From: an uncultured Bacteroidales bacterium
GTDB taxonomy: Bacteria; Bacteroidota; Bacteroidia; Bacteroidales; UBA4417
Reading direction: 5' to 3'
Assembly: GCA_903879715.1 (NCBI GenBank)
Contig: CAIRMR010000071.1
Span: 1-64,000, forward strand
Length of the DNA: 64,000 nt
The position numbers and the translations under genes were made by a program. Numbering within the stretch: the stretch's first letter is position 1; every line of letters begins with the position of its first letter. The notes beneath the pieces were generated by a model that worked only from the letters and a program-made list of their open reading frames with translations, was not told where the DNA came from and did no database searches. Below are positions 22,130-63,966 of the stretch, one piece after another.

Positions 22130-22684
22130 TTACTTTTTATTTTCAAACTCTACGGTTACATCAACTTTTATCTCCTCTGCGATTTTTTGAAAAACCACTT
22201 TCGGAATTGTAATATTATGATCCTTCAGTAAAACGGTGAACGCAGTTTCAGCATAAATCACACCTTCCAAAATTCGCAGCTGGATTTTAATAATGCGTTC
22301 CTGCTCAACTCCGTGTAAGTTTAACTTCCCTTTTGCCCGAACGGTATAAATACCATTCTTTAACAAATCAAGTTGTTCAATAATTTTACCTTCAAATGTT
22401 GAAACAGGGTAGGCTTTAGCCTCAATATAGTTTTCGTAGAAATGTTCCTGTTGCAGAGGGCTGTTAAATCCCTTAAATGATTCGGTAGGAATAGAAAATG
22501 CAAAAGTCCGTTTATCAGCGTCGATTACACCCTGAAGCTTTGCCGATGAAGCTTTTATAAGCTCAAGCGGGGCGTCCGACAAAAAGGAAACCTTACTTTT
22601 CCTGGCACGCAATACATTTTGCTGGGCATGAGTTTCACCAGTTACCAGGAACAGCAAAATAATTCCGATCAGGACTTTTATCAT
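22130..22684 (-). CDS. YceI-family secreted protein (copy 2)
   Basis: A 184-residue protein from the Met at 22684; the longer frame to 22813 adds 43 residues without signal features. A signal peptide ends at about GETHAQQ. The barrel (KSKVSFLSDAPLELIKASSA, FKGFNSPLQQEHFYENYIE, GKLNLHGVEQERIIKIQL) parallels the copy at 16996-17550 residue for residue in layout, including the end HNITIPKVVFQKIAEEIKVD. The two copies flank the two-component system, so the ligand and the sensor may be connected. A divergent MFS gene lies upstream. Confidence 0.88.
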   Translation of the reverse strand: MIKVLIGIILLFLVTGETHAQQNVLRARKSKVSFLSDAPLELIKASSAKLQGVIDADKRTFAFSIPTESFKGFNSPLQQEHFYENYIEAKAYPVSTFEGKIIEQLDLLKNGIYTVRAKGKLNLHGVEQERIIKIQLRILEGVIYAETAFTVLLKDHNITIPKVVFQKIAEEIKVDVTVEFENKK

Positions 22685-60127: not shown

Positions 60128-61630
60128 ATGAGTATAAAAAAGAGCAATCTGATTGCGCTCCTGCTTATTTCAATGGCTGTATTCTCTTTACAATCTTCCG
60201 TTGCACAAAACACATCTTTTACGCTTTCGGACTACAGGAATCCGAAATACTTTTACCAAACTCTGGACCTGAATTTCGGACTTAACAACTCTTCAAATAT
60301 TCAAAAAAACGACAACTCCTCTAATTTTTACAACCTGAAGAGCCATATGTTAGCAGCAAATGCTCAGGCAAATTATTCAATTTATGCAAATTCACGCAAA
60401 TCGCAAAGTGAGTTTTTTGCGTATTTAAACGGCAGTTTCGTTTCCAACGGACTACACAATCTATCCGAACTTACCAACAGCGAGTCGAGACAAAGTTATT
60501 TCTCGAATAATCAAACTTTTTCTTTCGGGGGATTGAAAAGGTTTTATAATGATAAACGGAATTATTTCGAAATCGGAGGTTCATTTTCAAATAGTCATTC
60601 CGGCAATTTGACTAAAAATAAATCGTTGAACAATGATATTATAACCTTTCAAACAAAAGGCAACGTAAGAAGTTTTTATTCTAACTCAAATGTGGTATTG
60701 CACATTGGGAAAGGAAGAATCGAGCAGGTTCAGGATGCACGCATGGCATTCTATTTAATTGAAGATTTGAACCAGTTAAACCGGGATAAACGCCCGGCCT
60801 CTGAGGATGATGTGCTTGAGTTGGCTAAACTTATAACCTCGCTGAAGTACAAACGCTTTTTCGATAACAGGCTGCGAAAAATAGCCGAAATCACGGCCAT
60901 TGATTCTTTTATGCAGCAAAAAGGAATAGTAAGCTCTGCTGATGCCACCTATTTTACCTCGTTAAACGATAACTGGGACTTTGCAAATAACCCGGTAAGG
61001 AACAGCGGTTGGCGCATTTTCACTGGTGTTGAGGGTGGTTTTGGTTATAATTATAGCAAAAATCAGGCTGAATACATGATTCCATCTCAAAGCACTCAAG
61101 ATCAATCGTATGCTAACAATCGGCTAAATGTTTTCTTAGTTGCAGGTTTGGATTACGAAAAACCTATTAACCTTAAATGGCAGAATTCCGCATCCATAAA
61201 GGCACAGTTTGGTTCCTGGACAACGAAATCAATCAACACGGCTTTAGGTGCAGCAGATGTTAATACTTACATCGGTGAATCTCCAATAATGGGCCTGAGT
61301 GCCAGCTACGGATTTGGGTATTACCCAAACTCCAGAACCTGGTTAACTGCAGATTGGGCTCTTTCATCAGGCTATAATAAGCAATTTACAGGGACATCAA
61401 AAAGTGATAAGGAAAACTCAACAAATAGCTTCATAATCTATACGGGGCCAAGTGCTCATGCCTATTATTATTTATCTGAAAAACTCAGGCTGAGTATAAA
61501 CTTTACCGGTTATCTTCAACTCAATAATGATAATTATATAATTAATATCCCTGAAAATTCAGATAATAATCAGACTAAAACAACGTGGGATTTTCACCTG
61601 GATGCTTCAATTACCTATAGTTTGTTTTAA
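60128..61630 (+). CDS. putative outer-membrane beta-barrel protein
   Basis: A 500-residue protein with a signal peptide ending at about SSVAQN. Alternating polar and aromatic strands run through it (FGGLKRFYNDKRNYFEIGGS, YLSEKLRLSINFTGYLQLN), and it ends DASITYSLF with a terminal Phe, as outer-membrane barrels do. A helical insert of about 80 residues (QVQDARMAFYLIEDLNQLNR, ELAKLITSLKYKRFFDNRLR) lies in the middle. Family unknown. It has its own strong promoter. It stands directly before the sigma / anti-sigma pair and could be its cargo or its target. Confidence 0.8.
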   Translation: MSIKKSNLIALLLISMAVFSLQSSVAQNTSFTLSDYRNPKYFYQTLDLNFGLNNSSNIQKNDNSSNFYNLKSHMLAANAQANYSIYANSRKSQSEFFAYLNGSFVSNGLHNLSELTNSESRQSYFSNNQTFSFGGLKRFYNDKRNYFEIGGSFSNSHSGNLTKNKSLNNDIITFQTKGNVRSFYSNSNVVLHIGKGRIEQVQDARMAFYLIEDLNQLNRDKRPASEDDVLELAKLITSLKYKRFFDNRLRKIAEITAIDSFMQQKGIVSSADATYFTSLNDNWDFANNPVRNSGWRIFTGVEGGFGYNYSKNQAEYMIPSQSTQDQSYANNRLNVFLVAGLDYEKPINLKWQNSASIKAQFGSWTTKSINTALGAADVNTYIGESPIMGLSASYGFGYYPNSRTWLTADWALSSGYNKQFTGTSKSDKENSTNSFIIYTGPSAHAYYYLSEKLRLSINFTGYLQLNNDNYIINIPENSDNNQTKTTWDFHLDASITYSLF

Positions 61631-61694: not shown

Positions 61695-61745
61695 AAAGGG
61701 AATTATTCAGCGCGATGCAACCATTTCTCTGTAATAGTTCCCTTT
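61695..61745 (+). terminator. possible hairpin after OM-barrel gene
   Basis: AAAGGGAATTATT (61695-61707) pairs with AATAGTTCCCTTT (61733-61745) with one G-U pair and a 25-base loop. No long U-run follows, so the terminator role is uncertain. Confidence 0.45.
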
Positions 61746-61812
61746 ACTGTCAGAACACTGAAACTGGCGAAGCCGTAAAGCAAAGGGGCTGCAAAAATGG
61801 CGATTTAAGTAT

Positions 61813-61820
61813 TACTTTTG
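61813..61820 (+). promoter_or_regulatory. -7 box (TACTTTTG) for ECF sigma gene
   Basis: TACTTTTG matches TAnnTTTG and ends 23 bases before the TTG start at 61844. It may be used by the housekeeping sigma factor. An autoregulated promoter was not identified. Confidence 0.45.
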
Positions 61821-61843: not shown

Positions 61844-62404
61844 TTGAGGAACGTTGTACAACTGATTTCCGGGAATAAGAGCGATATTGAGCGGGACCTC
61901 GTGCGGGGTTGCACCCGTAACGATCGCATTGCCCAGCGTGACCTTTATCATAAGTATTGCGATGCCATGTTCACCATTGCTTACCGCATTGTAAGCAACC
62001 GTGATGATGCCCACGACGCCCTGCAGGATGCCTTTATACAAGTATTCCGCGATATAGGGCAGTACAGGTTCGATTCAACCTTAGGCGCATGGATCAAGAC
62101 CATTGTTGTACGCACTTCGCTGAAACAGCTTTCGAAAAACCGTAAACTGGCTTTTGTCGATTTGGATGAAACAAAAAGCAATGAAATGATACTGATCCCT
62201 GATACGCTGAACAGTGAATACCTCGAAAAGATAATCCTTTCGTTACCCGATGGATACAGAACGGTTTTCCTGCTTACCGAGGTTGAAGGCTACAGCCATG
62301 AAGAGACTGCCAAAATGCTCGGCATTTCAACAGGAACTTCAAAATCGCAATTGCATCACGCAAAGAAAATGCTTAAGAACCGGCTTTCCGCATTGAATGA
62401 CTGA
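61844..62404 (+). CDS. ECF-type RNA polymerase sigma factor
   Basis: A 186-residue sigma-70 family factor. The N-terminal region 2 (LYHKYCDAMFTIAYRIVSNR, DDAHDALQDAFIQVFRDIGQ) binds the -10 element and core RNA polymerase. Region 4 (LPDGYRTVFLLTEVEGYSHE, ETAKMLGISTGTSKSQLHHA) binds the -35 element. There is no ATG before CDAM, so the start is taken as TTG at 61844; the ATG at 61839 hits a stop after one codon. The next gene, encoding a membrane-spanning anti-sigma-like protein, starts five bases after its stop. The two form an operon. Confidence 0.93.
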   Translation: MRNVVQLISGNKSDIERDLVRGCTRNDRIAQRDLYHKYCDAMFTIAYRIVSNRDDAHDALQDAFIQVFRDIGQYRFDSTLGAWIKTIVVRTSLKQLSKNRKLAFVDLDETKSNEMILIPDTLNSEYLEKIILSLPDGYRTVFLLTEVEGYSHEETAKMLGISTGTSKSQLHHAKKMLKNRLSALND

Positions 62405-62409
62405 TAAAC

Positions 62410-63966
62410 ATGGACGAAAATAAAAACCATAGTATTAACAGGCTGAGCGAACAGCTGCCATCACATTCTCCGGATAAGGAGACATGGCAGCGCCTTTCGG
62501 ACAAGCTGGATAGTATGGATTCAGAAACTGCTTATTATGAAAAGCTTCAGGGACTTCCGGTTCATTCGCCTTACGAAGAGACCTGGAACCTGATTTATAC
62601 GAGACTTAACCGTATCGCTTATTATAAAACCGGTATCCGTATAGCTTTATCGGCTGCGGCCGGGCTGTTGTTATTCTTCACAGTTTCACGTATTTCGGAT
62701 CAGTATCAAAATAAGCCAGACAGAGTGCTGCAAATTGCCAGCCAGGAAAAACAGCCAAAACTTCCCGGAAAATCAAATTCAGGTATTATCGTTGAAACAA
62801 ACTTGGCAACAAAGGAAACGGAAACGAGAAAACCAATTCGCAATTACAGGAATAATCCTGCTGACTTTAACCTGGCGGCTAAAAGTCCTGTCGTACAAGA
62901 TGCTTTAACTTCAAAGAATGAATCTGCCAAAGAACTTTCAATCACTGATATCATTGGCATTTCTAAAGGAAGTCGGAAGCCCGGACAAGTTGTTACTGGT
63001 TCGGAAGTTGCAATTACAGAAACCGCTAATCAGAAATTAACACAAGTTGTAGCAGAATCAGTAGCTGCAAATCCGAAAAAAGGAAATATCATGATCCCAA
63101 AAACTTCGGATTATGAAACCACTTTGAATACCGAAAAGAGTGCAGTACTTGCAACTCAAAATACTTTTATTCGGGATAGTATTCTTCCCGCTACAGAAAT
63201 AATAAATTCAGAAAATGAAATTAAATCAATTTTATTCCGGAAAGAGCAGTATGCTGCAACCGCACCCGTTTTAAAATATAACGCTCCGGTTGATGTTAAA
63301 CCAGCCAGCAATGAAAACTATTTTGCGCTGGCAATGAATTACCTGCCCGAAAACATAGATAACGGCACAAAAAATTCTCTTTTTCACAATGTAGACCTTA
63401 CTGCCAGCTATAACAAGGAAAAAATGAGGTTCAATACCAGCTTAGGAATGGCTTACAATGAAGAACAAATAGAGTTTAACGTGAACTACGACATCAATAC
63501 ACCTGTAACCGCTTTTGGAGAGGGAGGCAAACTGGATACGCTAAGTTATAGCCTGGCAGATATGAATTCGCAATATACCGGGAATGAAAAACACCAGTAC
63601 TTTACCTATAACCTCGGCCTTGGCAGGAAACTCTTCAGTTCCGGGAAGTTTTCGACATGGGTCAATCTTGGGGCCGGTTTTGGTATCCTGCTTAATAATT
63701 CTGACCTGATCGCATCTACAGAAAGTTCAGTTAAGAGCCAGTTCAATGTATTAAATGTCAGTGTCAATAGTTCGAAACCAGTTTATAATGATATAAATGT
63801 GAACGTTGTTACCGCAATAGATTTTAATTATAAAATCCTCAACAGATTAAGCATTACCTTCACTCCTACGAGCCGATGGTATTTAAAACCGGTCCTTTCG
63901 TTGGAAAGCCAGTCTACGGATAAACTTACCCTCGGGTTTAAGACCGGTATGAAATTCGACTTTTAA
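62410..63966 (+). CDS. dual membrane-spanning anti-sigma-like protein (Dma type)
   Basis: A 518-residue protein. Residues 1-70 are predicted cytoplasmic and contain two copies of one motif: LPSHSPDKETW (16-26) and LPVHSPYEETW (49-59), each followed by a leucine-rich helix. No HxxxCxxC zinc motif is present. Residues 75-94 are a single transmembrane helix (IALSAAAGLLLFFTVS). Residues 97-295 are a polar, low-complexity, probably disordered linker rich in Lys, Thr, Ser, Glu and Asn. Residues 300-518 show alternating amphipathic strands (YFTYNLGLGRKLFS, FSTWVNLGAGFGILLNNSD, LTLGFKTGMKFDF) and a final Phe, as in an 8-strand outer-membrane barrel. It therefore may cross both membranes, holding the sigma factor in the cytoplasm. 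The barrel is inferred by eye. Confidence 0.8.
   Translation: MDENKNHSINRLSEQLPSHSPDKETWQRLSDKLDSMDSETAYYEKLQGLPVHSPYEETWNLIYTRLNRIAYYKTGIRIALSAAAGLLLFFTVSRISDQYQNKPDRVLQIASQEKQPKLPGKSNSGIIVETNLATKETETRKPIRNYRNNPADFNLAAKSPVVQDALTSKNESAKELSITDIIGISKGSRKPGQVVTGSEVAITETANQKLTQVVAESVAANPKKGNIMIPKTSDYETTLNTEKSAVLATQNTFIRDSILPATEIINSENEIKSILFRKEQYAATAPVLKYNAPVDVKPASNENYFALAMNYLPENIDNGTKNSLFHNVDLTASYNKEKMRFNTSLGMAYNEEQIEFNVNYDINTPVTAFGEGGKLDTLSYSLADMNSQYTGNEKHQYFTYNLGLGRKLFSSGKFSTWVNLGAGFGILLNNSDLIASTESSVKSQFNVLNVSVNSSKPVYNDINVNVVTAIDFNYKILNRLSITFTPTSRWYLKPVLSLESQSTDKLTLGFKTGMKFDF

Follow-up and report, generated by a model that had tools for sequence, protein, structure and literature searches.

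We identified, near the end of a 64,000-nucleotide (nt) stretch of DNA from an uncultured Bacteroidales bacterium (lineage UBA4417, contig CAIRMR010000071.1; hereafter the window), an operon consisting of an extracytoplasmic function (ECF) sigma factor gene and a gene for a 518-amino-acid (aa) protein that is, with high probability, a Dma-like dual-membrane anti-sigma factor. The N-terminal head of this protein would silence the sigma factor, its C-terminal barrel would act as sensor, and release of the sigma factor would fire promoters that carry a common motif, including that of a serpin gene. The interpretation draws on features visible in the sequences themselves, namely gene order, the conservation pattern along the protein, barrel homology, and the conservation of the motif together with its place before the serpin gene (Table 1).

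A conserved operon encodes a protein with two conserved ends

The original prediction had described a sigma factor gene followed by the 518-aa gene, and both open reading frames (ORFs) were found where it had placed them. The sigma protein matches Pfam Sigma70_r2 and Sigma70_r4_2, both above cut-off, and its TTG codon occupies the same start position in 11 of 15 aligned genus rows. Only five bases separate the two genes. The 518-aa protein family is present in all 15 other genomes of the genus, with the match in one of them (G002) confined to 36 residues at the end of a contig, and a sigma ORF lies directly upstream of its gene in 14. In the fifteenth genome (G014), the contig ends before the gene, and a matching sigma gene sits near the end of another contig. 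Among 44 genomes sampled from other families of the order, the window protein found one match, on its N-terminal side; in a sample of the phylum, 6 of 296 genomes matched at E 1e-5 (the window's own not counted), all on the N-terminal side and in frames of 208–319 residues.

An alignment of 15 full proteins (A1: the window's and 14 genus relatives, G002 excluded) has a conserved head and C-terminal half, with mean identities of 49% and 56%, and a variable middle, the pattern of two functional ends joined by a spacer. In this middle part, residues 99–302, mean pairwise identity falls to 17%, with 49% gaps, and length varies from 129 to 204 residues across the genus. Its putative disorder was judged by this non-conservation and length variation and by composition: disorder-promoting residues make up 75% of the linker, modestly more than of the head (66%) or the C-terminal half (62%). 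Within the head, one motif occurs twice, at residues 16–34 and 49–67, 33 residues apart, and L16, P17, H19, W26, L33 and D34 in the first copy and L49, P50, W59, I62 and R65 in the second are invariant in the 15 aligned sequences. Residues 1–73 are therefore referred to here as a tandem head; they form a predicted sigma-binding domain of a type shared with barrel-less partners of the same sigma clade. By Kyte–Doolittle hydropathy, residues 74–92 are the sole segment above threshold, and net charge is +3 before the helix and 0 after it, which fits a head-inside orientation. One inner-membrane helix at about residues 75–94, a linker of about 200 residues and a C-terminal Phe had all been proposed beforehand and were recovered here. 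Extra inner-membrane helices, looked for by hydropathy, were not found, nor was homology to a lipoprotein family.

The C-terminal half is a predicted outer-membrane beta-barrel

Hydropathy averaged over the family alternates in 81 windows of the C-terminal half, compared with 26.1 ± 10.2 in shuffled sequences, and 0 of 1,000 shuffles scored as high. The final residue is F in 13 of the 15 genus members, the window protein among them, and L in the other two. A profile of the C-terminal half matches 11 of 11 relatives in the order that have a single head motif (independent E-values 5.4e-12 to 1.4e-18). All four single-head relatives scanned exceed the Pfam OMP_b-brl_2 cut-off in that C-terminal part; of four tandem-head proteins scanned, three match the same family below the cut-off. 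Using hhalign, A1 aligned with the single-head family (A5) over residues 300–518 at a probability of 99.7 (E 2.1e-26), and A5 in turn aligned with five named Bacteroidota proteins (A4) at a probability of 99.1 (E 8.2e-19). A4 comprises two B. finegoldii proteins plus single ones from P. distasonis, P. massiliensis and Bernardetia, all five encoded directly behind a sigma ORF. Four of these records (two B. finegoldii, P. distasonis and Bernardetia) are annotated as outer-membrane beta-barrel or porin family proteins; three of the four pass the OMP_b-brl_2 cut-off and the fourth equals that of OMP_b-brl. A search of solved structures with the family profile returned no match.

A shared promoter-like motif precedes the sigma factor and serpin genes

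Twelve of the 15 aligned genus rows have the core CAACC-N15-YYCCCTTTA, equally spaced, in front of the sigma gene; in L026 it is partial, and L014 and L015 lack it at that place. In the 6.07-Mb window genome, exact GCAACC-N15-YYCCCTTT occurs twice: one site is that of the sigma gene, and the other lies 25 nt upstream of the sole serpin gene found there. The reversed control does not occur at all. The serpin has, by eye, a lipoprotein-like N-terminus. Across the genus, 76 sites at up to one mismatch compare with 19 for the reversed control; merging identical sites left 68, and 9 that lie inside longer frames were left out of the target clustering. Across 295 genomes of the order, the full motif has six exact copies, of which five fall at these loci or at predicted targets, against two for the reversed control; the set includes genomes from which the loci came and is thus not an independent sample. 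The sixth site is at L228 (G061:C200:2544-2575), in a genome where only the barrel-side match was seen.

Outside the genus, 14 tandem-head loci of the order were compared, and 11 of them have the motif at up to three mismatches upstream of the sigma gene (L037–L043, L045, L047, L056 and L060), with no such site before sigma in L044, L046 and L049, and among the phylum-sample loci in one of six (L087). The 11 single-head stretches, which include the region before the sigma gene (its ORF recognised by script in 8), contain no site below four mismatches anywhere, and the five Bacteroidota loci none below five. This is as expected if the motif tracks the tandem-head sigma clade, and we infer that the window's sigma factor reads ATRCAACC-N15-YYCCCTTTA. 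Secreted-type proteins encoded after the anti-sigma gene have a further site before them in L017/L043, L042, L047 and L056 (the last with a PKD domain), as does a small one in L037. In one single-head locus, L240 (G113:C192), a perfect ATGCAACC -35-like half is paired with a -10-like half of another sequence, which hints at a common -35 element but different -10 elements in the two sigma clades. A one-mismatch site at window position 22306 was taken as a chance match. A search of the open-licence literature for the motif core with ECF terms gave no Bacteroidota title among the matches listed.

Serpins occur once each in 11 of the 16 genus genomes. Ten of them have upstream DNA (L125 does not belong to these), which we scored over the 17 specified positions within 150 nt upstream, and the motif lies before nine of the ten at 0–3 mismatches: the best sites have no mismatch in three, one in four, two in one and three in one, and five in the remaining one. 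For background, none of 56 ORF starts around other sigma genes of the window genome and none of 44 inside the window had a site with up to four mismatches. In a random background drawn from the serpin loci, a pool that includes the sites under test, 40 of 2,000 stretches reached three mismatches or fewer. In three genomes (G001, G004 and G006; loci L026, L028 and L029), the serpin gene is directly upstream of the sigma and dma genes, and its site has two, no and one mismatch, respectively.

The four sites at up to one mismatch in the window genome all lie 18–97 nt before a gene: the sigma gene, the serpin gene, an S46 peptidase gene, and the first of two genes that encode, in order, a 127-aa protein with a lipoprotein-like start and a predicted outer-membrane protein of 248 aa. 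The last two are less sure as targets. In the genus as a whole, such sites stand before the sigma gene in 11 genomes and before a gene for a Gfo/Idh/MocA oxidoreductase in 7. The outer-membrane protein is encoded directly behind the site in 6 genomes and, as the second gene after the 127-aa one, in 3 more; the serpin counts 5 genomes, identical or merged sites being excluded. An S46 peptidase and a surface-type protein each recur in 4 genomes, and a 209-aa protein and a TetR-like protein, the latter scoring under the Pfam cut-off, each in 3; eight site-bearing genes were seen once. The outer-membrane target protein is present in 16 of 16 genus genomes, and a site at up to three mismatches lies directly before its gene in nine; G014 is a tenth, with an exact site 33 nt upstream. 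Searches of the open-licence literature found nothing joining a serpin with an anti-sigma factor in Bacteroidetes and, for serpin with ECF sigma factor, only papers judged from the listing to be unrelated. The predicted serpin regulon, which did not turn up in these searches, appears to be new here.

Head and barrel are combined differently in two sigma clades

Architectures were read in detail at 25 loci of the order (L037–L061). Seven proteins match both profiles and combine the tandem head with a barrel (L037, L038, L040, L042, L046, L047 and L056), and L044, with a 477-residue frame ending in Phe, is placed with them by the head profile. Another group (L048, L050–L055, L057–L059 and L061) has the barrel and, by eye, a single-motif head that the tandem-head profile misses; P35 and W40 are invariant in its alignment, A5. 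Finally, L039, L041, L043, L045, L049 and L060 (L043 being the same gene as L017) have the tandem head without a barrel, in frames of 188–294 residues. In L039, L045, L049 and L060, a short tail after the helix has a C-x6-C pair and a coiled-coil-like end, and a separate secreted-type protein adjoins; our guess is that these forms sense metal or redox state.

A tree of 58 sigma factors places those of the window and other tandem-head loci in one clade (29 rows, support 99/91) and those of the single-head and Bacteroidota loci in a second (15 rows, 100/98). Together the two clades form a larger one (44 rows, 100/98) that excludes the 14 remaining sigma factors, all from the window genome. The tree had been given 18 of the other 24 region-4 matches of that genome; four of these rows and the single-head row L059 were dropped because the sigma match was too short, and several rows from the window genome stand on long branches. 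Most of the barrel-less forms fall outside the group of tandem-head loci with a barrel (95/92), with open forks, and L017 falls inside it; the barrel may therefore have joined the tandem head independently or have been lost several times. One further profile match in the window genome (G000:C3, L033; E 0.001) was set aside, as the 474-aa protein has no visible barrel. Its sigma gene overlaps the 474-aa gene; the product, with segments repeated in its N-terminal part and its helix at around residue 229, looks like a different anti-sigma type.

A plasmid collection gave no match when searched with the window protein or with a single-head relative; the named Bacteroidota loci came from among the matches listed in a sigma factor search of it (164 records). 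Entries L222–L225 come from PLSDB, where they are listed as plasmids of B. finegoldii, P. distasonis and P. massiliensis. As at least the B. finegoldii record L223 carries genes such as nadC and queF, these entries may be mislabelled chromosome contigs.

Comparison with known envelope-signalling systems

FecR-type anti-sigma factors and TonB-dependent transducers are two proteins that together pass an outer-membrane event to an ECF sigma factor. The window system differs in that a single protein would do so and no FecR-sized partner follows the sigma gene. As had been predicted, there is no sign of a FecR domain or of an adjacent transducer gene: the 518-aa protein has no Pfam family, and the neighbours are a 500-aa protein that also lacks a Pfam match and a Usp gene. 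Elsewhere in the genome, partners of FecR-like size (348–405 aa, helix starting at 88–118; classed by size) follow the sigma genes L062, L069, L070, L072 and L079.

Much closer in design are the Dma1/Dma2/Dma3 and Das1/Das2 systems of B. thetaiotaomicron, described as a sigma gene beside a protein with an N-terminal sigma-binding part, one helix, a long disordered tether and a C-terminal barrel (PMC13088901, in the parts cited here). The window system, also from the Bacteroidota, matches all four parts of that architecture. It differs in carrying the head motif twice, in having a sigma factor in a sister clade of the sampled Bacteroidota ones, and in its predicted targets, which include a serpin, whereas the cited parts of PMC13088901 tie Dma/Das to stress vesiculation and polysaccharide loci. 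Our sequence comparison used B. finegoldii and other relatives, the B. thetaiotaomicron proteins being likened by description. In Phocaeicola vulgatus, M0N98_03761 and M0N98_03760 form a comparable pair, in which an unusual anti-sigma factor, predicted to reach across the periplasm and to end in an outer-membrane barrel, is encoded downstream of the sigma gene and which mounts an envelope stress response giving partial protection against antibacterial toxins (PMC9308784, in part). The window protein is likewise periplasm-spanning by prediction and encoded behind its sigma gene. The cited parts of that paper do not name a serpin, and the Bacteroidaceae and Parabacteroides proteins that we examined have, by eye, a single head motif compared with two in the window protein. 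EcfO and its partner in Bacteroides fragilis, an ECF sigma/anti-sigma pair that the same text calls similar to the P. vulgatus pair, differ in the oxidative-stress response reported for them (PMC9308784, in part); here, too, the likeness is by description only. PMC12611786, PMC12045153 and PMC12578637 contained nothing useful on sigma factors. At the level of sequence, the Dma-like reading of the operon given by the original prediction is supported by the upstream sigma gene in 14 of 15 genomes, the chain of barrel homology, the one helix, the variable linker and the agreement with the four-part published architecture.

Neighbouring genes and further features

A second predicted promoter of the sigma gene, with a housekeeping-like -7 box, lies nearer the gene than the ECF-type motif, and its box is retained in 11 of 15 aligned genus rows; the TAnnTTTG consensus is quoted in PMC9723704 (in part). 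The sigma gene is preceded by the gene for the 500-aa protein (60128-61630), which has a signal-like N-terminus and a C-terminal Phe, and the C-terminal end of this protein is recognisable by eye in L002, L003, L018, L019, L023 and L024. The Usp gene (assigned by Pfam) follows the operon just past the window, at 64204-64638 of contig C71 (L032:9205-9639), and also follows it in 9 of the 14 genus relatives read with a 1.5-kb flank. No copy of the promoter motif at one mismatch was found near the Usp gene in L032.

Table 1 Positions of the operon, its protein domains and its predicted promoters in the window
Feature	Position	Strand	Description	Evidence
ECF sigma factor gene	61844..62404	+	186 aa, TTG start	ORF, Pfam, genus alignment, tree
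Predicted anti-sigma (dma) gene	62410..63966	+	518 aa, ATG start	ORF, alignment, profiles
Cytoplasmic head, residues 1-73	62410..62628	+	predicted sigma-binding domain, tandem motif LPxHSPxxxTW...L	
Single inner-membrane helix, residues 74-94	62629..62691	+		hydropathy, flanking charge
Linker, residues 95-302	62692..63315	+	predicted periplasmic tether; measured on 99-302	
Predicted outer-membrane beta-barrel, residues 303-518	63316..63963	+	C-terminal Phe	profiles, hydropathy
Predicted autoregulatory ECF-type promoter	61715..61746	+	ATRCAACC-N15-YYCCCTTTA	genus rows, genome matches
Second predicted sigma-gene promoter	61813..61820	+	housekeeping-like -7 box TACTTTTG	consensus TAnnTTTG

Proposed mechanism and alternative explanations

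The mechanism suggested by these data, including sigma binding, topology, trigger and release, would run as follows. The tandem-motif head would bind and silence the sigma factor in the cytoplasm, and the helix would anchor the anti-sigma protein in the inner membrane. The 204-residue linker, with a contour length of roughly 70 nm, would cross the periplasm to the barrel, which would act as the sensor in the outer membrane. Damage to the barrel or linker, or their altered assembly, may then set the sigma factor free, either through proteolysis or because tension is lost, and the free sigma factor would transcribe its own operon, the serpin lipoprotein gene and a small set of genes for exported proteins. 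Defence of the envelope or against proteases appears to be the likeliest role.

Several observations weigh against this interpretation. The window protein has no more than chance-level NCBIfam matches in addition to lacking a Pfam family, and 0 of 15 genus members score over the cut-off of an outer-membrane barrel family, OMP_b-brl_2 (PF13568) included. Aligned directly by hhalign, the window family and the five A4 proteins match weakly (65% probability, 93 columns), so that the link to the Bacteroidota proteins runs through the intermediate family. In the tree, the window sigma factor falls in the other half of the 44-row clade from the five Bacteroidota sigma factors, so that it is at best a candidate member of the ECF21/Dma group in the strict sense. 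AlphaFold, given a three-sequence input, produced no confident barrel, with a predicted local distance difference test (pLDDT) score of 30.6 for the full length and 28.4 for the C-terminal half alone; the beta-barrel of the original prediction is thus upheld by the chain of profile homology and not by a confident structure model. On the promoter side, sites at up to one mismatch show no enrichment in the window genome (4 versus 5 reversed), and the S46 peptidase and lipoprotein sites belong to this class. A serpin was not found in 5 of the 16 genus genomes, the motif is not present before serpin L126 (best site, five mismatches), and the recurrence of targets between genomes may in part reflect relatedness.

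A more specific version of the mechanism, in which external or misdirected proteases trigger the dual-membrane anti-sigma factor by attacking its exposed loops or linker at the cell surface and the serpin then blocks these proteases, is possible but on balance unlikely. Protease attack is attractive as a special-case trigger because of the serpin, which is the best-supported target and adjoins the operon in three species; the S46 peptidase is a further candidate in four genomes, and the long, variable linker would be an obvious protease substrate. However, the Gfo/Idh/MocA oxidoreductase (seven genomes) and the TetR-like protein (three) do not suggest proteases, the genomes in which no serpin was found count against such an alarm, and the cited parts of PMC9308784 and PMC13088901 tie published relatives to toxins, envelope stress and vesiculation. 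We regard as rather doubtful, and offer as speculation, the wider proposal that envelope-spanning anti-sigma factors arose more than once by placing different outer sensors on one head type, the window version being a surface-proteolysis alarm with cleavable tether or loops and the serpin as its main output.

Other readings dispense with the barrel, with the regulatory role or with the link between motif and sigma factor. In the first, the C-terminal half of an inner-membrane anti-sigma factor would be a soluble beta domain that stays in the periplasm and touches an outer-membrane partner. Such a reading would agree with the AlphaFold result and with same-head relatives (L039, L041, L045 and L060) that have a short tail and an adjoining separate secreted protein, but the OMP_b-brl_2 homology, the dyad alternation of hydropathy and the terminal F or L in 15 of 15 members make it improbable. 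It is very improbable that the second gene encodes an ordinary outer-membrane protein with no regulatory role, its hydrophobic segment being a late signal peptide. The barrel family is common and the four annotated public records say only outer-membrane barrel or porin, yet about 73 residues with invariant Trp and Pro motifs precede the helix, barrel-less proteins with this head are also encoded beside sigma factors of the same clade, which would not be expected of a signal region, and published relatives act as anti-sigma factors: in the cited parts of PMC9308784 and PMC13088901, loss of the anti-sigma factor frees the partner sigma factor. The motif could also be read by another regulator, with the sigma/dma operon and the serpin gene both passive members of its regulon, as its assignment to the sigma factor follows from autoregulation logic and co-occurrence; this we think quite unlikely, given that its presence before sigma in most tandem-head loci contrasts with its absence from the single-head and Bacteroidota loci, where the best sites have four and five mismatches, respectively.

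Significance

A dual-membrane anti-sigma factor is a kind of system that is already known, and the one predicted here is not categorically new. What appears to be new is the sister clade, the doubled head motif, the barrel-less cousins, the promoter-like motif and the predicted serpin regulon. Known examples come from gut Bacteroides and their relatives, and what they sense is poorly understood. With its defined promoter motif, its few predicted targets and its natural relatives that lack the sensor, the sister clade makes sensor, tether and head separable for testing. The link to a serpin provides a concrete hypothesis for what such a protein may sense.

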